This document shows, one piece after another, positions 3,098 to 20,311 of a stretch of 49,963 nt of DNA. Both the position numbers and the translations under genes were made by a program. This DNA is from a virus: positions 1 through 49,963 of the IMG/VR virus record IMGVR_UViG_3300044712_002653. One strand, written 5' to 3'. Within the stretch, counting starts at the first letter, position 1; each line of letters opens with the position of its first letter. The notes below the pieces were generated by a model. That model did not search any database. It was not told the origin of the DNA and was given only the letters and a program-made list of their open reading frames with translations.

Positions 3098-3468
3098 GTC
3101 GTCTCCCCCTCGGTCTCGGAGCCCGCGGGCCACGGAGGAAGCGGAACCGTCTGGCCCGCCAGCGCGTGCGTGCAGTCGCCCAGGAACTCGATGCGGCCGG
3201 CGCGCACGAACGAGTGGCAGACGCCGCAGCGGAACGTCGGGCCGTCCGGGTGCTCGCGGTTCCAGTCGCACCAGCACGGCTTCTTGCCGTCGGCGTGATG
3301 GCCGCTACGAACGAGCACCGAGGGCGAGAACGTCGGCGCGTCGGCGTTCCCGTCCCACGTCCAGCCGCCGGGGTTCACCGAGACGACGTGCGCCTCGTTG
3401 CAGCCTGGACACCAGAACCCGATTCCGCCGCCGGAGAGCGTCCTGAGCAGATTTCCAAGCGCAACCAT
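3094..3468 (-). CDS. DUF6527-like phage protein
   Basis: A 124-residue protein with the conserved pattern FWCPGCNEAHVVSVN, GWTWDGNADAPTFSPSVLV, then C-W-C, CGVCHSFVRAGRIEFLGDCT and AGQTVPLPPW. This arrangement is typical of the phage DUF6527 family, sometimes mislabelled ammonia monooxygenase. The Cys/His pairs suggest a metal-stabilised fold; the function is unknown. The ATG at 3468 is chosen because AAGGAG sits five bases upstream; an in-frame GTG two codons earlier overlaps that ribosome site. Confidence 0.75.
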   Translation of the reverse strand: MVALGNLLRTLSGGGIGFWCPGCNEAHVVSVNPGGWTWDGNADAPTFSPSVLVRSGHHADGKKPCWCDWNREHPDGPTFRCGVCHSFVRAGRIEFLGDCTHALAGQTVPLPPWPAGSETEGETT

Positions 3469-3470
3469 GT

Positions 3471-4169
3471 TCACTCCTTCTCGTTGTGTTCGGCGGGGTC
3501 GCCGGGGGAGGGGGACGGGGCCAGGGCGCGGAGGCGTTCGCTGATGCGCTTGCAGGCGAAGGCGCCATGCGTGTCGCAGGTCGCGCCGTGGTGGTTGCCG
3601 GCGGAGTCCAGCAGGCTCGCATGGTCGGCGTACGCCTGCTCCTCGTCGGCGGCCACGGCGAGCGCCGCCTCGACGCCCTCGCGGAAGCCCTGCGCCCGGA
3701 TCATCTCCTCGACGGCCACCGGGGCGAGGTCCGCGTCCCGGGCCTCCCCGTCCGGAGGAGCGCCCGGGGCCATAACTTCGGTGCGCAAGGGTCCAGCCCG
3801 AACCGCGACCGCGGCGTCAGCGAGCGCCTTCTCGACGCCCGGAGCCATCCGCGTCCACTCGCCATCGCCAACGACGGCACGCATCCCGGCCAGTACCGCC
3901 TCCACGCGGCGCGCGCACGCTTCCCGCTCCGTCATCGCCGCCGTCTCCCCGTCCGAATGAGCGCCCTTGTGCCAGCGCGTGCCGCACTTCGCGCATCCGA
4001 CCGAGTTAGGGTCCGAGGTGGCTAGCAAGAACGAGTCGCAGCACCTTGAACGCCCGCCCGTCTCCCGGGAGGCGCGGAGGGCACGGAGCGCGTCGCTCTC
4101 TTGGTGCTCGCAGGGCCCGCCGGAGTGGCAGGTCCCGCACGTCTCGTGGTGGCTTATCCTGGTCGTCAT
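3471..4169 (-). CDS. Hypothetical phage protein, Cys/His-rich N-terminus
   Basis: A 232-residue protein of unknown role. The N-terminus carries HHETCGTCHSGGPCEHQ and later CCDSFLL...CAKCGTRWHKG, resembling paired zinc-binding knuckles. The middle is alanine-rich helix (EACARRVEAVLAGMRAVVGD) and the C-terminal third has CDTHGAFACKRISERLRAL. The ATG overlaps the HNH-gene stop as ATGA. Confidence 0.6.
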   Translation of the reverse strand: MTTRISHHETCGTCHSGGPCEHQESDALRALRASRETGGRSRCCDSFLLATSDPNSVGCAKCGTRWHKGAHSDGETAAMTEREACARRVEAVLAGMRAVVGDGEWTRMAPGVEKALADAAVAVRAGPLRTEVMAPGAPPDGEARDADLAPVAVEEMIRAQGFREGVEAALAVAADEEQAYADHASLLDSAGNHHGATCDTHGAFACKRISERLRALAPSPSPGDPAEHNEKE

Positions 4170-10179: not shown

Positions 10180-10421
10180 CTGAGACCTCCGAGGGAGAGC
10201 TGGCCGCGCGACGAGGGCGGGGCGGCCGCGGGCGCCACCCCCGGCGCCGGGAGCGCCTGCGCCCGGGGCGTGGGGCGCGGCGCCGTGCCGGCGCCGGGGG
10301 TCGGGCGGGCGGGGGCAGGTCGATAGGAGCGGCCGCCGCGCGGGGCGGCCGGGTAGCCCTGGCGCGCGAGGGCGCGGGCGCGGACGAGTACCTCCGCGGC
10401 GGCGGCGACGTCGGGGGTCAT
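10176..10421 (-). CDS. Small hypothetical protein
   Basis: An 81-residue protein: a short helix (DVAAAAEVLVRARALARQGY) followed by a Pro/Arg/Ala-rich tail ending QLSLGGLR. The conserved-looking end motif could be a partner-binding peptide, but nothing proves it. The ATG overlaps the cytosine methyltransferase stop as ATGA. Confidence 0.5.
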   Translation of the reverse strand: MTPDVAAAAEVLVRARALARQGYPAAPRGGRSYRPAPARPTPGAGTAPRPTPRAQALPAPGVAPAAAPPSSRGQLSLGGLR

Positions 10422-12166
10422 GCGGCGTGGACCTCCAGCTCCTCGCGCGCTCGGCCGTCCTCGCGAACCCAGATCCCGTCGGAGGAGAGGAACCAGGTCC
10501 CGAGGGATCCGGCGAGGAGCGCCTTCAGGATCGAGAGCGCGATGGCGGTGGCAGCCTGGACCGGGACGGCGTTGCCGATGCGCTCCCCCCAGCCCGCGGC
10601 GTTGCGTCCCGCGAGGCGGAGGGGCTCGCCGCGCACGCGCGCGGGCAGGCCCTGGAGCGCGGCGCGGTCGAGCAGGGTCATCGGGCGGTGCCAGGTTCCG
10701 TCGGCCGCGACGATGACCGGGACGTTCCGGGGCGCGCGCCGCGGGTCGGCGACTGCCACGGTGCCGTTGTCGATGCGGCCTCCGGTCACCGTCGCGGCGG
10801 CCTCGTCCCAGCGGAGGACGCCGTACGCGGTCGCGCGCGGGACGCACGTCGGCCGCGGGTCGGCCACGGACCCTGGTCCGGTTCGGACGTTGGAGGCTCC
10901 GCGGACGGTGGGCGACGGCTCGGCCCAGGGCACGACGCCGAGCGAGCCGCGGTAGGGGGAGTGATCGAGTGCGAGGCGCGGGTCGGCGACGCTCGCCGGG
11001 GTGTTCGACCGCGCCGGCGCCATCGCGCCGGTGATGGCCGGGGCGGCCGATTCCCACGGCACCACGCCGAAGGTCCCGCCGCGCGAGGTATCTCCGCGCC
11101 CGAGCCGCGGGTCGGCGACCGCGAACCCGCCGTTGGTCCCGCCGCCAGCGACCGTGCGCGCGGGCTCGTCCCACGGCCGGACGTCGTACTTCGCGAAGAC
11201 CTCGCGGCGCGGCTGGCCCGGCTCGAGCGGCGTGAGGATCCGCGGGTCCGCGACGGCGGCCGGGCCCGTCGACGTGCTCACCGAGGCCGTCCCGTTCACG
11301 GCGCCCGTCGGCTCCTCCCACGACTCCACGCCGAAGTGCCCCGGGCGGCCCTTGAACGACGCCGCGTTCGCTCCGGTCTGCGCGAGGAGCGCCTCGGGGA
11401 TCGAGGTGGGAAGGTCGCGCCAGTCGCCGCCGGCCGGGATGAGGGCGAGCCGAACCCAGTTCAGCCACGAGATCCGGGGAAGGCGGTGGAGCTCGCCGGC
11501 GGAGCCGTCCTCGGGGAGGGGCAGCTGCCCCAGGACCTCGCCGCACCCCTTCACGCGCTGGAGGGGCGGCCGGTAGATGAACGCCGGCACGGCGGCCGGG
11601 CGCCTGGCGACGAGGAGGAACCGGCGCCGGTGCTGGCCGAGGCCCCCGATCTCGCCGCAGTCGTGCGTCCCTTCGTGGAAGACGTACCCGTACTGCGCGA
11701 GGAGCTGGCGCGCCCGGGCGAGGTTCTCGGCGCCGCGCGACATGATCCCGGGGACGTTCTCGAGGATGATCGCCGGCGGCGGTTCGGACCAGGTCTCGCA
11801 GATGAGGTACAGCCCCTTGATCACGAGCTCGTTCAGCTCGATGTACTTCTGCTGCTCGGCGCTGGCGCGAGGGAGGAGCCGCGAGTACCCCTTGCACGGG
11901 GGCGAGAGGAAGACGCAGTCGGGGCGGCGGGGCCCGGCGAAGGCGAGCAGCTCAGCGGGCGAGAGCGTCGCGAGGTCCGCGCAGAGCGATGGCCCGTCGG
12001 CGAGGCGCTCGAAGTCGGCGCAGGCCTCGGGGTCGAGGTCGATGCCGCCGAGGTTCACGAAGCGGGCTCGGTCGCGGCCGAGTTGCGCCATCGCCTCGAG
12101 GAACCCGCGCGCGCCGGCGCCGAGTCCGCAGAACGGGAACAGGACGGTGAACTCGCGGACGCTCAC
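10418..12166 (-). CDS. DNA C5-cytosine methyltransferase with internal repeats
   Basis: A 582-residue C5-cytosine methyltransferase. Motif I is FPFCGLGAGARG (about 10-21); motif IV is FLSPPCKGYS with the catalytic Cys at 91; motif VI is ILENVPG (ENV at 136-138); motif VIII is QHRRR at 178-182; motif IX is near RPMTLLDRAALQGLP (494-508); motif X is GNAVP at 531-535. Between VIII and IX, where the target-recognition domain lies, sit five repeats ending VADPR (278-476). No cognate nuclease is adjacent, so it probably protects phage DNA from host restriction or tunes phage gene expression. GTG start, GTGA overlap. Confidence 0.93.
   Translation of the reverse strand: MSVREFTVLFPFCGLGAGARGFLEAMAQLGRDRARFVNLGGIDLDPEACADFERLADGPSLCADLATLSPAELLAFAGPRRPDCVFLSPPCKGYSRLLPRASAEQQKYIELNELVIKGLYLICETWSEPPPAIILENVPGIMSRGAENLARARQLLAQYGYVFHEGTHDCGEIGGLGQHRRRFLLVARRPAAVPAFIYRPPLQRVKGCGEVLGQLPLPEDGSAGELHRLPRISWLNWVRLALIPAGGDWRDLPTSIPEALLAQTGANAASFKGRPGHFGVESWEEPTGAVNGTASVSTSTGPAAVADPRILTPLEPGQPRREVFAKYDVRPWDEPARTVAGGGTNGGFAVADPRLGRGDTSRGGTFGVVPWESAAPAITGAMAPARSNTPASVADPRLALDHSPYRGSLGVVPWAEPSPTVRGASNVRTGPGSVADPRPTCVPRATAYGVLRWDEAAATVTGGRIDNGTVAVADPRRAPRNVPVIVAADGTWHRPMTLLDRAALQGLPARVRGEPLRLAGRNAAGWGERIGNAVPVQAATAIALSILKALLAGSLGTWFLSSDGIWVREDGRAREELEVHAA
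10739..11335 (-). repeat. Five-unit coding repeat in the cytosine methyltransferase
   Basis: Five degenerate units at residues 278-309, 327-354, 366-397, 409-438 and 448-476. Each reads roughly aromatic-G/D-V-x-x-W-x-E/S-x-x-x-T/A-V/I-x-G, then a variable Gly/Asn/Thr stretch, then VADPR. The VADPR motifs are 45, 43, 41 and 38 residues apart. Confidence 0.9.
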
Positions 12167-12525
12167 GGCGCCTCCGGAGCGGGCGCCGACGCGAGCTCGG
12201 GGTCGTCGAACCAGAGCGAGCATAGGTAGGCGACGCCGGCGATCTTGTGCTCGTGCTTCGGCGCCCACGAGGAGAGGAGCGCCTTCAGGCACCGCGCGGC
12301 CGCGCTCTTCTCGACACCCGGCCTCGGGACGAGGCGGTCCCACCATGCGCGGTCGCCGCCGATCGCGAACCAGCGGCTGATCTGGCTGCACCATGGGCTC
12401 GTCTCGCGACGGAACTCGTCGGGGATCTCGTGCCAGGGCGGGAGGTGCTCCATCGTCCCCCAGGCCATCTCGACGTCCTTCACGGCCGGGGGCGCCGCGG
12501 GCGGAGTCCAGGGCTTCTCAGCCAC
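12163..12525 (-). CDS. Hypothetical phage protein
   Basis: A 120-residue protein rich in Trp (EMAWGTMEHLPPWHEIPDEF, SPWCSQISRWFAIGGDRAWW) with a helical C-terminal half containing WAPKHEHKIAGVAYLCSLWF. The pattern is familiar from phage hypothetical proteins near replication or methylase genes, but no function is known. The GTG start overlaps the upstream gene by 8 bases. Confidence 0.6.
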   Translation of the reverse strand: MAEKPWTPPAAPPAVKDVEMAWGTMEHLPPWHEIPDEFRRETSPWCSQISRWFAIGGDRAWWDRLVPRPGVEKSAAARCLKALLSSWAPKHEHKIAGVAYLCSLWFDDPELASAPAPEAP

Positions 12526-13895: not shown

Positions 13896-14289
13896 GCCGC
13901 GCCTCCGTCTGGTCGAGCAGCGCCTGGGTCCGCTCGCGCCAGGCCGCCGCGCGCTTCGTCCGAGGCATCAGCTCGAGCGCCTCGGCGAGGAGCTCGCGCA
14001 TCGTCGGCGCGGCCTCGGCGACGCGCTTCTCGTCCCCGCGCGCCGGGTCGTGCTGCAGGCAGAACCACCGCTCCCGGTCGACTCTCCACCCGCGCTCGAC
14101 GCCGCGCTGCACGACGCCCTTGCGGTGGCACTCGCCAGGAATCTTCGACCAGGAGTTGCGCGGGCGCGTGGAGCCGCAGCACCGCGGAACGTCCTCGTGC
14201 ACGCGGCCGTACTCGTCGCGCCACGCGGAGAACCGATGCGGCGGACCCGCTGGGAACTCGTAGTCCTGGCGGACGTCGCTCTGGCTCAC
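13885..14289 (-). CDS. Hypothetical phage protein
   Basis: A 134-residue protein with an aromatic N-terminal part (YEFPAGPPHRFSAWRDEYG), Cys pair CCGSTRPRNSW, a Cys/His pair CHRKG...CLQHDP that could bind metal, and a helical C-terminus. GTG start, GTGA overlap. Function unknown. Confidence 0.55.
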   Translation of the reverse strand: MSQSDVRQDYEFPAGPPHRFSAWRDEYGRVHEDVPRCCGSTRPRNSWSKIPGECHRKGVVQRGVERGWRVDRERWFCLQHDPARGDEKRVAEAAPTMRELLAEALELMPRTKRAAAWRERTQALLDQTEARHVH

Positions 14290-14576
14290 GACGCCCTCCG
14301 GGCGAGGTGCGTCTGGCTCGACGCGAACCGGCAGAGGGGCAGCTGCGCCTGGAGCAGCTCGAGATCGCGGGGCTCGGGCTCGACGCCGAGGGCCCACCGC
14401 ATCCACGTGGACTCGCCGCGCCAGGGGCGCCCGTCCTCCTCGAGGACGGCGGCGAGGGTCTCGCCCCGCCCGGCGGTCTGGATGCCGTAGAAGACGGCGG
14501 CGGCGAGCGGGGAGGGCGCCTCGATGCTGCGGACGTTCCCGGCGGCGCCGACGCGGTACTCGTGCAGGCGGGACAT
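14286..14576 (-). CDS. Hypothetical phage protein
   Basis: A 96-residue protein beginning MSRLHEYRVGAAGNVRSIEA. The N-terminal half looks like a small alpha/beta fold (strand EYRVG, helix SPLAAAVFYG, strand TLAAVLEEDG); the C-terminus is helical and basic. Not recognised. It starts three bases after the stop of the upstream gene. Confidence 0.55.
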   Translation of the reverse strand: MSRLHEYRVGAAGNVRSIEAPSPLAAAVFYGIQTAGRGETLAAVLEEDGRPWRGESTWMRWALGVEPEPRDLELLQAQLPLCRFASSQTHLARRAS

Positions 14577-14579
14577 GGG

Positions 14580-14822
14580 TCAGGCCTCCCCGGAGAGCTC
14601 GCGGCGGATGCCGGAAACGAACTCGCCCACCGACTCCACCCGATGGATGCGACAGACCTCGAACACGCAGAGGGCGTGCGTGGTCCTGTCGTCGAGGGTG
14701 ACGGCGACCGCCTCGGAGCCCGGGCGGACTTCCTTCACGAGGCCCGAGATCCCGGCCAGCCCGGTCTCGAGGATGAGATCGCCAGGCTCGAGGAGGCCCG
14801 CGAGAACGCTCCGCTCACGCAT
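14580..14822 (-). CDS. Small beta-rich hypothetical protein
   Basis: An 80-residue protein with alternating short strands (GDLILETGLAG, EAVAVTLDDRTTHALCVFEV) suggestive of a small barrel, possibly SH3- or KOW-like. Family not recognised. The ATG overlaps the upstream gene by 8 bases. Confidence 0.55.
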   Translation of the reverse strand: MRERSVLAGLLEPGDLILETGLAGISGLVKEVRPGSEAVAVTLDDRTTHALCVFEVCRIHRVESVGEFVSGIRRELSGEA

Positions 14823-15165
14823 GGCGCGCCTCTCCGTCTGCCTGGAGCGGATAGCCCGCCGCGAGCAGCGCTGCCTCCGCCTGCTGCAGCGCCTTTGGGT
14901 CGTGCTCGCGGAGCCAGGCGCTGATCCGCTTGTCGAGGACCATCACCAGCAGCGCGTCGGCGAGGTGGCAGACCGACCCGATGAGCTGCGCGTTCGCACG
15001 CTGCTCGTCGATTCCGGGCGCCGCCAGGACGTGCGCGACAGCGATCCCAGCGGGCGCACCGTCGATACGGCGGGCGCAGCGCACGTACAGCTTCGATCCC
15101 TCAGCCTTGCGATCCGGGGGGCTCACCGTCCACGGCCCCGCGCTCCACTTCGTCTCGTTCGGCAT
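14815..15165 (-). CDS. Hypothetical protein, first gene of leftward operon
   Basis: A 116-residue protein. The start MPNETKWSAGPWTVSPPD resembles the T-PGPW motif common at the N-terminus of small phage proteins. The middle contains DEQRANAQLIGSVCHLADAL, matching the ANA.LI...P.L pattern of that family. Function unknown. It is the first gene downstream of the predicted promoter at 15294-15322, with a leader of roughly 120 bases. Confidence 0.65.
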   Translation of the reverse strand: MPNETKWSAGPWTVSPPDRKAEGSKLYVRCARRIDGAPAGIAVAHVLAAPGIDEQRANAQLIGSVCHLADALLVMVLDKRISAWLREHDPKALQQAEAALLAAGYPLQADGEARHA

Positions 15166-15291
15166 CGCTTCCCCCTTCGCTTCGTGCTGCGTGCTCGTCG
15201 GCGTCGCACGGCTGTCCGTCTAGCTTCCCGGCCCTGGCCACCAATCCGCGGCTGCTGCGGGTTCTTCCGGTGGCTGCGTTGCAACGACTTC

Positions 15292-15339
15292 GGACTTTAT
15301 GTCCGTCACGCCTGCCCGTCAAGAACGGACATAAAGTCC
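15292..15339 (-). promoter_or_regulatory. Leftward promoter with two repressor operators
   Basis: Two 13-bp operators, GGACTTTATGTCC at 15292-15304 and its exact inverse GGACATAAAGTCC at 15327-15339, start 35 bp apart. Read on the minus strand, a -35 TTGACG (15317-15322) and a -10 TAAAGT (15294-15299) are separated by 17 bp; the -10 lies inside the first operator and the second lies just upstream of the -35. This would drive the 15-kb leftward operon beginning at 15165. The rest of the gap 15166-15385 shows no gene. Confidence 0.8.
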
Positions 15340-15385
15340 GTTGCAAGTACCGGGAAAGTAAGGGTCAGCGCGCCGCGCGCCCGAC

Positions 15386-15616
15386 CTACGAGCCGCAGCG
15401 GTTCAGGACTTCAGCGCAGAGGTCCCGGAGCTCGGCCACGTAAACGAGCGCGGACTCAGGGTCCGGAGCGGGGAGGCAGTAGCCCGCCGCCGTCGCGAGG
15501 TACTTCATCTCGGGCACCTGCTCCTCGAGGCAGGCGCGAATCCGGACCCGGTGCTGCTCCGTCGATTCGGGCACCGCGCGACGCGCGGCGGCGACGGACC
15601 CATGAGACGAGCTCAT
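15386..15616 (-). CDS. Small hypothetical protein
   Basis: A 76-residue protein, largely helical (QHRVRIRACLEEQVPEMKYL; ALVYVAELRDLCAEVLNRCG). The ATG has no clear ribosome site, and an upstream in-frame GTG at 15661 also lacks one, so the start is uncertain. It lies between the zinc-ribbon membrane gene and the leftward operators, in the switch region. Confidence 0.45.
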   Translation of the reverse strand: MSSSHGSVAAARRAVPESTEQHRVRIRACLEEQVPEMKYLATAAGYCLPAPDPESALVYVAELRDLCAEVLNRCGS

Positions 15617-15731
15617 GGTCGTTGGTGTTGCGCGCCCGGGGAAAGAGAGCCCCAACCCCACCCGCCAAGCAGCCCGAACGCGCGAACAGCACCCTGCCGG
15701 GCCGGTCTGACAGTGAGACTGCGGGGCGCCG

Positions 15732-16274
15732 CTACTCCTCGATCCGCAAGCCGAATTCCGGCGTGAAGCTCGCGACGGTCTTCCCGTTGCGCCAGTCCTC
15801 GAGGAGCGCCGACGTCAACTCCGGGTTCTCAACCCAGTGGTAGGTGAACGCGACGTCGGCAGCGAGCTGCTTCTCTTCGAGCGGGAGGCCGCGCCACCTG
15901 GGGCCGATCCGGAAGACGATGACGTTGCGGCCGGGGGCGCGCACGTACCCGTGGAACACCTGCGCACCGACGAGGTCCTCGAGGAACCTCTTCCGCTTCC
16001 CCTGCTTCGCTTTGGACTCGGCCGTTGGCTGAGGCCGTGGGCGAGGCGGCGGGGGCGGATCCATCGTCGGCACGGCCGGGCCGGACGGAGGCATCGCGGG
16101 CGCCCCCGGTGGCGTTCGGGCGAAGAACCACCACGCGCCGAACGCGAGCATCGCCAGGACGACGACGCCAGCGACCGCCGCGCCCGCTGACGAGACGGGC
16201 TTGCCGCACTTCGGGCAGGCACTCGCGGAGCTCGATACCGGCTCGCCGCAGTCTCGACACGGCTTCAGCGCCAT
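15732..16274 (-). CDS. Zinc-ribbon, single-pass membrane protein
   Basis: A 180-residue protein. CRDCGEPVSSSASACPKCGK (residues 6-25) is a zinc_ribbon_2 module; AAVAGVVVLAMLAFGAWWFF (about 33-52) is a transmembrane helix; a Pro-rich linker follows (about 60-85). The outer domain ends in a region resembling small periplasmic folds (FHGYVRAPGRNVIVFRIGPR; WVENPELTSALLEDWRNGK). The start overlaps the HTH-gene stop by one base (TGATG), so the two are co-expressed. In a lysogen it could act in superinfection exclusion or sensing; that is inference. Confidence 0.7.
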   Translation of the reverse strand: MALKPCRDCGEPVSSSASACPKCGKPVSSAGAAVAGVVVLAMLAFGAWWFFARTPPGAPAMPPSGPAVPTMDPPPPPRPRPQPTAESKAKQGKRKRFLEDLVGAQVFHGYVRAPGRNVIVFRIGPRWRGLPLEEKQLAADVAFTYHWVENPELTSALLEDWRNGKTVASFTPEFGLRIEE

Positions 16275-16576
16275 CAGGGCCCACCCTTCCCAGGGCCGAA
16301 CTTCTCGACGAGCTCGTCCCACTCGGCGAACGGCCACAGGCGCGGTGCGCCCAGGATCTCGGCGATGGCGCCGAGCTCCCGCACGGTGAACGGCGTGCGT
16401 CGCTTCCCCGTCCGCTTGTACCAGTCGTCCGGCGAGATCCCGATGCGCTCCGTGAGGCTCTTCACGTCGAGGGGCGCCTTCTCTCCGGGCGGTGCTCGTC
16501 TCCTGGCCTCGCGGACGACCCGCTCACGGATCTCGGTGACCGAGTACCGCGGCTCCCAGGTCTTTGCGGACGCCAT
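16274..16576 (-). CDS. Cro/CI-type HTH regulator
   Basis: A 100-residue DNA-binding protein. VKSLTERIGISPDDWYKRT (about 43-61) and FTVRELGAIAEILGAPRLWP form an XRE-like helix-turn-helix core with its last helices. It is divergent from the XRE gene at 16681 across a 104-bp gap holding three operators, the classic arrangement of a phage immunity region. Which of the two is the maintenance repressor cannot be decided from sequence. The ATG giving MASAKTWEP is chosen because longer frames run into the operators. Confidence 0.75.
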   Translation of the reverse strand: MASAKTWEPRYSVTEIRERVVREARRRAPPGEKAPLDVKSLTERIGISPDDWYKRTGKRRTPFTVRELGAIAEILGAPRLWPFAEWDELVEKFGPGKGGP

Positions 16577-16600
16577 CGCGGCCGAGTTTAGGCGCCCTCC

Positions 16601-16673
16601 GGACCGTATGTCCGCGATGTTGTTAGGACTTAAAGTCCGCGCTTGCGTTGTAGGCTTTACGGACATAAAGTCC
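16601..16673. promoter_or_regulatory. Divergent switch region with three operators
   Basis: Three 13-bp sites: GGACCGTATGTCC (16601-16613), GGACTTAAAGTCC (16626-16638) and GGACATAAAGTCC (16661-16673). The last two start 35 bp apart and frame a rightward promoter, -35 TTGCGT (16643-16648), 17-bp spacer, -10 TAAAGT (16666-16671), the same geometry as the leftward promoter near 15300. The first site is nearest the leftward HTH gene and is the most divergent. The predicted transcript would start at or just before the ATG at 16681. Confidence 0.8.
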
Positions 16674-16680
16674 GAATGCG

Positions 16681-17019
16681 ATGAGGGACGACGACAAGGT
16701 AAACGCGGTCGTGGGCGAGAACATCCGGCGCCTGCGCGTGGGGCGCGGGATGACGCGCCTGGCGCTCGCGGAGAAGGCCGGGATCGACGACAGCCACCTC
16801 GGGAAGATGGAGCGAGGAAAACGCGGGACGTCGAGCGGCGGGTACCAGCGCCTCGCGGACGCCCTGGGGGTCGCGGTCGCCGCGCTGTTCACCGTCGCGC
16901 CGGGCGCTCCCAAGAAGCGGAGCCCGCCGAAGGGCCGCCGCTCCGCGCCGCGCTCCGCCGCCGCCCGCCTCGTTCGTTCGCCGGTTCACGAAGCGAGCAT
17001 CCCGTACTCGAAGTCTTAG
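16681..17019 (+). CDS. XRE-family HTH repressor candidate
   Basis: A 112-residue protein with a complete XRE HTH at about residues 10-68: VGENIRRLRVGRGMTRLALA, EKAGIDDSHLGKMERGKRG, then QRLADALGVAVAALF. The C-terminal 40 residues are Pro/Arg/Ser-rich and lack a LexA-like autoprotease domain, so any induction would not use RecA-stimulated self-cleavage. It lies directly after an operator-covered -10 box, has no ribosome site, and may be leaderless as lambda cI is from PRM. It is the best candidate for the protein recognising the five operators. Confidence 0.8.
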   Translation: MRDDDKVNAVVGENIRRLRVGRGMTRLALAEKAGIDDSHLGKMERGKRGTSSGGYQRLADALGVAVAALFTVAPGAPKKRSPPKGRRSAPRSAAARLVRSPVHEASIPYSKS

Positions 17020-17067
17020 CGCCTGTCGCGTTCAGCACCGCACGCGCGACACCCTGGGGAGGGGACG

Positions 17068-17574
17068 ATGCCGGAGACGAGGTTCGAGGTCGCGAAGGTC
17101 CTGTTCGACCACATCGAGGGCGAGGGCGGCTACGGCTGCTCCCGGCTCGCCGAGAAGGTCGACTGCAACCCGCGCACGATCCAGAGGTGGTGCGCCAACG
17201 AGACGCGCCCGTACGCGGACGAGTTGCTGAAGGTGGTGGCAGCCATCCAGGAGGACGACCCCGCGCGCGCCTCCTCGCTCTGGCGCGCCCTCTCCGCTCT
17301 GGTGTTCCAGGAGTCGCGTCCCGCCCCCCGGGCCGAGCTCGCGGGCGACGTCGAGGACGGATGCCTCGCGGTCTCCGAGGAGGCGGGCGACGTCACGCGG
17401 GCGCTCCGGAAGGCACGCGACCCCCGCAGCGCGGGCGGCGTCGAGATCACGCCCGGCGAGGCCGCCGAGATCGCCGAGGAGGCCCGCGACGTGGAGCGAG
17501 CCGCGGTCGGCCTGCACGCGGCCGCCCGGAGCGTCCCCAGCCCGCAGCTCGCGCTCGCGTCGGGGGTGCGGTGA
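17068..17574 (+). CDS. CII-like phage regulatory protein (CP76-type)
   Basis: A 168-residue protein. YGCSRLAEKVDCNPRTIQRW (about 22-41) is a helix-turn-helix, followed by ADELLKVVAAIQEDDPARAS, the layout of the phage CII (CP76) family that decides between lysis and lysogeny. The C-terminal half is acidic and helical (EVTPGEAAEIAEEARDVERA-like). A good ribosome site, GGGGAGGGG, precedes the ATG. It follows the XRE gene, as CII follows Cro. Assignment is by pattern, so moderately sure. Confidence 0.65.
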   Translation: MPETRFEVAKVLFDHIEGEGGYGCSRLAEKVDCNPRTIQRWCANETRPYADELLKVVAAIQEDDPARASSLWRALSALVFQESRPAPRAELAGDVEDGCLAVSEEAGDVTRALRKARDPRSAGGVEITPGEAAEIAEEARDVERAAVGLHAAARSVPSPQLALASGVR

Positions 17575-17675
17575 TGCCCTGGCAGGCGTGGGTGGTCGTG
17601 GCGTACCTGGCGTTCGTCGGCGCGTTCGTGACCGCCTGGTCAGAGAAGCCGCGCCTCTCGGACGACGAGGCCTGA
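17574..17675 (+). CDS. Tiny single-pass membrane protein
   Basis: A 33-residue peptide: one hydrophobic helix (WQAWVVVAYLAFVGAFVTAW) and a charged tail SEKPRLSDDEA. It overlaps the previous stop as TGATG. Could be a small membrane regulator; function unknown. Confidence 0.5.
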   Translation: MPWQAWVVVAYLAFVGAFVTAWSEKPRLSDDEA

Positions 17676-17680
17676 CATCC

Positions 17681-18325
17681 ATGCACGTTCCGACCTTCGC
17701 GACGATGCAGGACTTCCTCGGCATGGGAACCGACCGGGCGCACGGCGCCCCGGCGGAACGTGCGGTCTCTTCGCCGTGCCCGGAAGCCGCCCGCGAGGAG
17801 GCGGCCCCATCCGGCGTGCCCGCGGGGTCTGCCTTCGATCTCCACCGCGCCACGCGCGCGGTGCCGTTCCTTCTCCTGTTCGGTCTGGTGGCCTGCAAGG
17901 GCCACCCGGAGGGCGCCGGGGCCACCCCCCCGGCCTCGGCGTCCTCCGTCTTCATCGGCGAGCGCGCGGGAGCGGCCAGCGCGAGGGCGGACTCGGCAAC
18001 CCCTGCAGCCGGGTCCGCCCTCGCCGACGCGGTGCGCCTTCGCCGGACGGTCGACGAGCTCGCGGCGCGCGTCGCCCGGCTCGACCCGGACGCCTTCGCG
18101 CGACCGGTGGGCGCCGGGTGCGCCGCCGCGTGTGACCTGCTCGGCGTGAAGGCGGTCACCTTCGCCGCCGGCGAGGCGCGCTGCACGTGCGGTCGCCTCC
18201 CGAGCCTCGGAACCCACCCAGCCACCAGCCGCGCCGCCCGGGCGCAGAAGGCCGCACGGCTCGAGACCGTGGCCGGGCCGGGCGCCCGGATCGCGGCGGC
18301 GGACGCGGTCGCGACGACGCCCTGA
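17681..18325 (+). CDS. Hypothetical protein with internal lipobox
   Basis: A 214-residue frame from the ATG at 17681. An unusual signal-like segment lies inside at about residues 55-72: RATRAVPFLLLFGLVACKG, where LVAC looks like a lipoprotein signal-peptidase II site. The true start may therefore be downstream, for example a GTG at 17818 giving a lipoprotein. After the lipobox come a low-complexity Ala/Ser stretch, a helix (VRLRRTVDELAARVARLDPD) and CAAACDLL...CTCGR cysteines. Function unknown. Confidence 0.5.
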   Translation: MHVPTFATMQDFLGMGTDRAHGAPAERAVSSPCPEAAREEAAPSGVPAGSAFDLHRATRAVPFLLLFGLVACKGHPEGAGATPPASASSVFIGERAGAASARADSATPAAGSALADAVRLRRTVDELAARVARLDPDAFARPVGAGCAAACDLLGVKAVTFAAGEARCTCGRLPSLGTHPATSRAARAQKAARLETVAGPGARIAAADAVATTP

Positions 18326-18384
18326 ACCTGCGCGCCCCGTCGGGCGCGAGCTGCCGGCGATGTCCGGCGAGGAGGACGGAAGCG

Positions 18385-18723
18385 ATGCACTACAGAGACG
18401 GAACGCCCGCCGAGCTGGGCGACAAGGTCACCGTGGCGGACGCCGACAGCGTGCCGGCGGACATCCACGGCGGCGCGACCGGCAACTTCAAGAAGATCCC
18501 CGACTACTACCTGACCGAGCAGGGCCGGAAGGAGCGCACCGGCGTCGTCATCGGGCGCGACACGAAGGGCACCTGCGGCGTCGCGATCTTCCGGCCGACG
18601 AGCGACGTCGTCCGGTCGCTCGGGTACACGGTGCTCTGCACGCAGTCGCAGGAGCCGGGCGCCTTCGTCGTCGAGGGCTTCTGCATGCCGTGCGAGACGG
18701 CGTACCTGCGGAAGGTGGCCTAG
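18385..18723 (+). CDS. Hypothetical phage protein (KOW/SH3-like start)
   Basis: A 112-residue protein beginning MHYRDGTPAELGDKVTV, the pattern of small barrel-fold phage proteins (Y.DGT.A..GD.V). Later GVVIGRDTKGTCGVAIF and CMPCETAYLRKV. GGAGG lies nine bases before the ATG. Function unknown. Confidence 0.65.
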   Translation: MHYRDGTPAELGDKVTVADADSVPADIHGGATGNFKKIPDYYLTEQGRKERTGVVIGRDTKGTCGVAIFRPTSDVVRSLGYTVLCTQSQEPGAFVVEGFCMPCETAYLRKVA

Positions 18724-19004: not shown

Positions 19005-19466
19005 ATGGCCCCGCTCGCTGCACAGATCGGTCTCGACTTCAGCGCCAAGCCGGCGCCGGGGTCGAGGCCTGTCCGCGGCGAGCGGGTGCCCGACCCGGTC
19101 TTCCTGAGCATCCGCGCCGAGGTGGCCCGAGAGATCGCGTCCCGCCGCGGCGAGGCCCAGGCCGTCACCGGGGAGCGCCTTGCCGAGATCGTGAAGGAGC
19201 GGCTCGGCCTCGAGGCGATGACCCTGCGGACCGTCCAGCGCCGCTGCGAGGAGGCGGTCGAGCAGATCCGCGACGAGGGCGAGCAGCTCATCGCCGCGAC
19301 GGGGGCAGGGAAGTTCACCCCGGAGACGGTCGAGGAGCTCGAGCGTGACCTCCGGCAGTCGACGGCGCGCGCCCTGAAGCAGCTCCGGCACCGGTCCCGT
19401 GTGAAGCGGGCGCTGCTCGAGTTCCGCGGGCAGCAGCGGCTGAGCGCCGCGGAGATCGCGCGATGA
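19005..19466 (+). CDS. Hypothetical helical protein
   Basis: A 153-residue, mostly helical, charged protein (SIRAEVAREIASRRGEAQAV; LRTVQRRCEEAVEQIRDEGE) ending in a basic helix. A segment RLAEIVKERLGLEAMTLRTV could be an HTH. The stop overlaps the MT-A70 start. Function unknown. Confidence 0.5.
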   Translation: MAPLAAQIGLDFSAKPAPGSRPVRGERVPDPVFLSIRAEVAREIASRRGEAQAVTGERLAEIVKERLGLEAMTLRTVQRRCEEAVEQIRDEGEQLIAATGAGKFTPETVEELERDLRQSTARALKQLRHRSRVKRALLEFRGQQRLSAAEIAR

Positions 19467-20311
19467 CGCCCCCGCTTCCCACCACGCCGGGCGGCTGGCC
19501 CTGCATCGTGGCCGACCCGCCGTGGTCGTTCCGTGACACGGGCTCCCGTCTCGCCCCAGACCAGCGCAGGAAGCGCGGGAAGAAGAAGGGCTACAGGACC
19601 CTCTCGCTCGACGACATCGCGGCGCTGCCGATCCGCGACATCGCCGCGAAGGACGCGTTCCTGTTCCTCTGGACGACCGACGCCCACCTCGTGGACGGCT
19701 CCGCCGCGGAGGTCGCGATCCGCTGGGGCTTCGAGCCGAAGCGGGTCTGGACGTGGGTGAAGGCGACGCCCCCGGCCGTCGACCTGCGGATGGCCGTGGC
19801 TGGTCAGGTCGACCTCCTGCGCGAGCAGGGGTACGGCCGCGATGCCCGGTCGCTCCGTCGCGTCCTCACGGCGACGAAGCGCGACCTCCACCTCGGTACG
19901 CTGGGCTTCGGGGGAGGCCACTACGTCCGGACCGCGGACGAGAAGGTGCTCATCTGCCGCCGCGGCCGGGCACGGGTCCTCGTCCACGACGAGCGGAGCG
20001 TGTTCTTCGCCCCGCGCCGCGCGAACGGCCTCACCGGCGAGGTCCACTCGACGAAGCCGCCCGAGCTGCTCGCGAAGGTCGAGCGGGTCTGCATTGGACC
20101 CCGCCTCGAGCTCTTCGCCCGCGAGGAGCGCCGAGGCTGGCGCGCGTGGGGGAATCAGGTGCCGCCGTACCAGGTCGGCGACGGCTGCCCGAACTGCGGG
20201 AGCACGAAGACGATCACCGGCCGCGGCGGGTGGCTCCTCGACTGCCGCGAATGCGGCTTCACCTTCACCGATCGCAGTCCTGAGGTCGTGGCGCGGAGGT
20301 CAGCTGCATGA
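19463..20311 (+). CDS. MT-A70 family adenine methyltransferase with zinc ribbon
   Basis: A 282-residue protein. IVADPPWSF (DPPW at 18-21) is the MT-A70 catalytic motif; YRTLSLDDIAALPI, FLFLWTTDAHL, WGFEPKRVWTWVKA, FGGGHYVRTADEKVLI and the KPPELL segment follow the family order. It is expected to methylate adenine at N6 in DNA. A C-terminal extension CPNCGSTKTI...CRECGFTF (about 235-263) is a zinc ribbon, not part of the usual catalytic core, and could help DNA binding. It overlaps neighbours on both sides by ATGA. Confidence 0.9.
   Translation: MTPPLPTTPGGWPCIVADPPWSFRDTGSRLAPDQRRKRGKKKGYRTLSLDDIAALPIRDIAAKDAFLFLWTTDAHLVDGSAAEVAIRWGFEPKRVWTWVKATPPAVDLRMAVAGQVDLLREQGYGRDARSLRRVLTATKRDLHLGTLGFGGGHYVRTADEKVLICRRGRARVLVHDERSVFFAPRRANGLTGEVHSTKPPELLAKVERVCIGPRLELFAREERRGWRAWGNQVPPYQVGDGCPNCGSTKTITGRGGWLLDCRECGFTFTDRSPEVVARRSAA

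Follow-up and report, generated by a model that had tools for sequence, protein, structure and literature searches.

Phages N15 and phiKO2 have three OR and two OL operator sites, of which the phiKO2 Cro protein binds only OR3 (PMC4997575), and in the related phage PY54 the cI and cro mRNAs are leaderless (PMC4488713). A second group of described regulators that bears on the present locus is that of the controller (C) proteins of restriction-modification systems: the C-boxes of C.PvuII and C.Esp1396I have the half-sites and spacing (GACTTATAGTC) GAC, an AT-rich core of five, and GTC (PMC3758141, PMC4824078), and residues T36 and R46 of C.Esp1396I read the GTC bases (PMC4041747). The window, i.e. 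the whole 49,963-nucleotide stretch of viral DNA analysed here, contains between positions 15292 and 16673 five sites that we read, with a probability of roughly 0.83, as the OL (two sites, at PL) and OR (three sites, at PR) of a lambda-like lysis-lysogeny switch.

By its genes the window reads as a temperate myovirus; it encodes an integrase, a helicase, a DnaC-like loader, a terminase, a portal, a head protein and a tail sheath. All gene calls from 15165 leftward are on the minus strand, beginning with the first gene of the PL operon (14815-15165; no assigned function) and ending with the integrase (1-1371; phrog_1, 5.1e-30), and all gene calls from 16681 rightward, among them helicase, helicase loader, terminase, head and tail sheath, are on the plus strand. 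The rightward operon opens with a 112-aa regulator (16681-17019; HTH_3, 1.2e-9), below called the 16681 protein, followed as second gene by a putative CII-like activator (17068-17574, plus strand; phrog_101 CII-like, 2.5e-6; Phage_CP76, 0.0011, under the cut-off), and no terminator was found between the two. As first gene of the rightward early operon, with the CII-like gene next, the 16681 gene is placed in the Cro position.

Three leftward genes lie between OL and OR. The one nearest OR (16274-16576, minus strand) encodes a 100-aa HTH-like protein in the CI position, a putative lysogenic repressor whose helix-turn-helix is weakly supported (E 0.016-0.05); its structure model is of low confidence (pLDDT 55, five helices) and too weak for a fold search, no C-terminal dimerisation or cleavage (LexA-like) domain was found for it in Pfam or PHROGs, and a profile comparison with the 16681 regulator found no kinship between them. 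Next to it, in the place of the rex genes, is a zinc-ribbon protein (15732-16274, minus strand) with a likely membrane helix, judged from a hydrophobic stretch read by eye, and then a small ORF (15386-15661, minus strand) with no family match. Elsewhere in the window the leftward operon carries a C5-cytosine methyltransferase (10418-12394) and the rightward operon an MT-A70 adenine methyltransferase (19463-20311); no restriction enzyme was recognised among the proteins scanned, and the two methyltransferases likely serve to protect the phage DNA.

A preliminary description of the region had listed five 13-bp sites with common arms, and all five are present where it placed them. OL1 (15292-15304, minus strand; PWM score 23.0 bits) and OR1 (16661-16673, plus strand; 22.8 bits) both read GGACATAAAGTCC and are thus identical when each is taken in the orientation of transcription, OL2 lies at 15327-15339 (minus strand; 22.8 bits), and OR2 (16626-16638, plus strand; 23.5 bits) reads GGACTTAAAGTCC. 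These four near-identical sites, in two pairs, share the form GGAC-WTWAW-GTCC. The fifth (16601-16613, minus strand; GGACATACGGTCC) is the most divergent, as had been observed, with 12.6 bits against ~23 for the others and a 95% line of 14.7 for simulated maxima; its assignment as a weak OR3 is plausible by position only, the score not being significant alone. A 15-bp extension, CGGAC-N5-GTCCG, is found at 15292, 15327, 16661 and 16601.

The arms by themselves are unremarkable in a window of 72% GC, which would favor regarding the sites as chance palindromes of GC-rich DNA: GGAC-N5-GTCC at up to one mismatch occurs 49 times against 59 expected, palindrome families of six with any core within 1.4 kb are frequent in simulations, and the arms have two further exact copies, at 15452 and 28486, that appear to be background. 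It is the AT core that sets the four sites apart. GGACWTWAWGTCC has four copies in the window and none in 300 windows simulated with its trinucleotide composition, and the best AT-cored palindrome family within 1.4 kb has four members as compared to at most two in simulations. Since such AT-cored sites never arise in the simulations and moreover stand in register at two promoters, the probability of a chance origin is negligible. No further strong sites were found within the record.

Both early promoters are overlapped by these operators. PL (15294-15322, minus strand) consists of TTGACG (15322-15317), a 17-bp spacer and TAAAGT (15299-15294), and is the sole sigma-70-like promoter above threshold in the 4.5 kb from 14000 to 18500, where 0.1 is expected; transcription of the leftward operon, in which the first gene begins at 15165, is predicted to start from it. 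PR (16643-16671, plus strand) consists of TTGCGT (16643-16648), 17 bp and TAAAGT (16666-16671), and its transcript is predicted to start within a few bases of the ATG at 16681, i.e. to be leaderless. The geometry given in the preliminary description is borne out: the members of each pair (15292/15327 and 16626/16661) start exactly 35 bp apart, with one operator (OL1, OR1) over the -10 TAAAGT and the other (OL2, OR2) 4 bp upstream of the -35. The 49-bp PL and PR cassettes, placed in register, are identical at 38 of 49 positions, and between the operators 13 of 22 positions match (P ~0.002, or 0.05 when TTG and the operator flanks are left out); an origin of PL and PR from one duplicated promoter is possible on this likeness.

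For the repressor-position gene the best minus-strand candidate promoter before 16576 is a predicted PRM (16585-16614; CGGACA, 18 bp, TAAACT; 8 of 12) whose -35 is overlapped by OR3 and which ends 8 nt before the ATG at 16576, so that this transcript would also be leaderless. Two smaller features are found near the promoters. The heptamer GTTGCAA flanks OL, as CGTTGCAACG immediately downstream of the PL start region (15277-15286) and as CGTTGCAAG immediately upstream of OL2 (15339-15346), possibly as a site for another regulator; and at 16676-16684, near the predicted PR transcript start, a two-codon reading frame, ATG CGA TGA, lies ahead of the 16681 start and shares bases with it (GATGA).

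The layout is thus one of divergent repressor-position and Cro-position genes flanking OR, with the former, weakly scored as an HTH gene, between OL and OR, a right early operon containing CII-like and replication genes, and a left operon ending in the integrase. We propose that in the lysogen a repressor, most likely the 100-aa protein, would occupy OL1, OL2, OR1 and OR2, and by covering the -10 of PL and of PR would turn both early operons off, while PRM would stay on until the weak OR3 fills. Upon induction, PR would provide the 16681 protein, which would bind all of these sites or a part of them, would turn PRM down, and perhaps would also lower PL and PR later. We infer from the arrangement which protein would bind which site and in what order of affinity, and in view of phiKO2 Cro it should not be assumed that both proteins bind every site.

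It had been suggested that one repressor silences both the leftward operon and its own gene. The part of this proposal that stands is a common regulator for the leftward operon and the 16681 promoter, as one operator type is found at both; a single self-silencing repressor is doubtful, with the 16681 gene in the Cro place. That the 16681 XRE protein is such a single repressor, acting on all sites to silence PL and its own PR, is suggested by the lack of another strong HTH_3 protein at the locus, by the place of its gene directly after OR1, and by the controllers that read GAC-N5-GTC half-sites among its closest solved relatives. However, its gene runs in the same direction as the CII-like and replication genes and seems to share their transcript, and therefore to have it on in the lysogen would be to have the lytic genes on too; also, the repressor position is taken, both in the window and in the relative described below, by another HTH-like gene. 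We consider this reading unlikely. The 16274-16576 protein, encoded between OL and OR and in the opposite direction, appears the better candidate for the lysogenic repressor.

Support for the two-regulator switch comes from a relative (IMGVR_UViG_3300012204_000011, here L009) that was found by a helicase scan and whose helicase is 69% identical. Its immunity region contains an HTH-like gene read leftward and, divergent from it, an XRE gene whose product has a basic tail at the C terminus; in pairwise alignment the two are 36% (leftward) and 40% (XRE) identical to the window regulators. Gene order and operator logic are the same, so that the common plan is repeated, but the operator sequence is wholly different: a 20-bp element, TGTTGGT-N6-ACCAACA, common to the PL and PR regions of L009 at 18 of 20 positions, where 200 shuffles reach 15. 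This operator covers the -10 (TATACA) of PR, 8 nt before the ATG of the XRE gene, and probably lies over the -10 of PL as well, where TTGACA stands ~17 bp before the operator and there is no good -10 by consensus. Because the operators differ, the window phage and L009 are expected to be heteroimmune; control layout has been kept and operator and regulator sequences replaced, as expected for escape from mutual immunity.

The same comparison bears on the suggestion of cooperative binding at a 35-bp spacing, which finds no support. The operator spacings of L009 differ (26 bp at PL), and 35 bp is hence no conserved rule; moreover 35 bp corresponds to 3.33 helical turns, and no oligomerisation domain is recognisable in either protein. 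Any cooperativity or looping at these operators would be conjectural.

Searches for the same operators elsewhere were directed both at the sites and at the genes. A paired-operator scan of viral contigs and 85k species genomes found no related switch and no phage with GGAC-type operators, and relatives of the 16681 gene, the CII-like gene and the leftward HTH gene sought in viral contigs and phage records yielded none that were useful. Among the candidates set aside, two (L007, L096) are tandem repeats and not switches, one (L105) is a repeat-rich stretch, one from Chryseobacterium (L097) is a dispersed repeat, as by their same spacing the other Chryseobacterium hits probably are, and next to the sites of two others (L008, L103) no XRE gene was recognised. 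L090, a tail-related phage with a divergent XRE pair, does not follow the shared-operator plan.

Some of these sequences have features of their own. L007, an unrelated 138-kb viral contig, contains at 3537-3712 at least seven GGAC-N5-GTCC palindromes, mostly GGACATAATGTCC, in ~180 bp, several with CGCTTTTG spacers, in an iteron-like array. The Chryseobacterium genomes (loci L097-L102, L104, L106, L107) carry dispersed paired palindromes at several places per genome, e.g. TGGACTTAAAGTCCA and GTGGACTTAAAGTCCAC, 28 bp apart, at L097:7278-7320, in what looks like an intergenic repeat family. In L090 the repeat CGAAAAAA(A/G)CGTTG occurs at 2451-2464 and 3227-3240, 776 bp apart, once just before a divergent XRE gene, and may mark two co-regulated promoters of other design.

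The window operators also invite comparison with restriction-modification controllers. The operator core, GAC-(AT-rich 5)-GTC, matches the C-boxes of C.PvuII and C.Esp1396I in half-sites and spacing, the best solved relative of the 16681 protein is C.AhdI (2.1e-6), and in the alignment with C.Esp1396I its S38 and R48 stand opposite T36 and R46, although D37 replaces R35. Like C.AhdI, C.PvuII and C.Esp1396I, the window thus combines a small HTH_3 regulator, an AT-cored GAC-N5-GTC operator and a leaderless transcript of the regulator gene, the last predicted. This likeness is a lead that the 16681 protein may bind these sites; the presence of GAC-N5-GTC operators in front of the gene for a small HTH_3 protein, as seen here, is a generic trait and not specific. 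A rule by which S/T38 together with R48 predicts GAC-N5-GTC upstream is unsupported among 59 homologues of two phyla (one of 17 carriers as compared to two of 42 others). It is quite improbable that the Cro-position protein has restriction-controller-type recognition of GAC-N5-GTC and could thereby cross-talk with the C-protein operators of a restriction-modification system in a host.

Very improbable is a true restriction-modification circuit, in which the 16681 product, as a C protein, would first activate and later repress both its own promoter and the leftward operon that carries the methyltransferase. The C5 methyltransferase of that operon and the features just listed would suit it, but the scan of window proteins, which covered a subset of the ORFs, recognised no endonuclease, and the methyltransferase gene is buried well inside a long operon of the phage; in place of a tight adjacent C-box pair there are sites 25 and 35 bp apart, and the setting is that of phage early operons.

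The lysis-lysogeny switch that we favor has closer counterparts among phages. As in the immB region of N15 and phiKO2, three OR sites, of which the weak third is here assigned by position, lie between divergent repressor and cro genes (here by position) and two OL sites at a leftward promoter farther away, and the leaderless mRNAs predicted here have a parallel in the cI and cro mRNAs of PY54; however, the N15/phiKO2 operators are of a 16-bp T-A-N10-T-A type, unlike the 13-15 bp CGGAC-N5-GTCCG of the window, and their OL controls repA rather than an operon ending in integrase. With lambda the window shares divergent repressor- and Cro-position genes, related operators at PL and PR, a stretch between OL and OR that contains the repressor gene (here its candidate) together with other leftward genes, a CII-like gene in the right operon, an integrase that closes the left operon, and the weakest site nearest PRM (here predicted). 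It differs in having five sites instead of six, spaced by 25 and 35 bp unlike those of lambda, in an OL-OR distance of ~1.3 kb instead of ~2.3 kb, and in a repressor candidate of 100 aa without the C-terminal domain of lambda CI. Knowledge of such switches is unchanged by this locus: the plan is well known, and the DNA sequences and regulator proteins are this phage's own, providing a clean and testable lysis-lysogeny switch for an uncultured group of high-GC temperate myoviruses.
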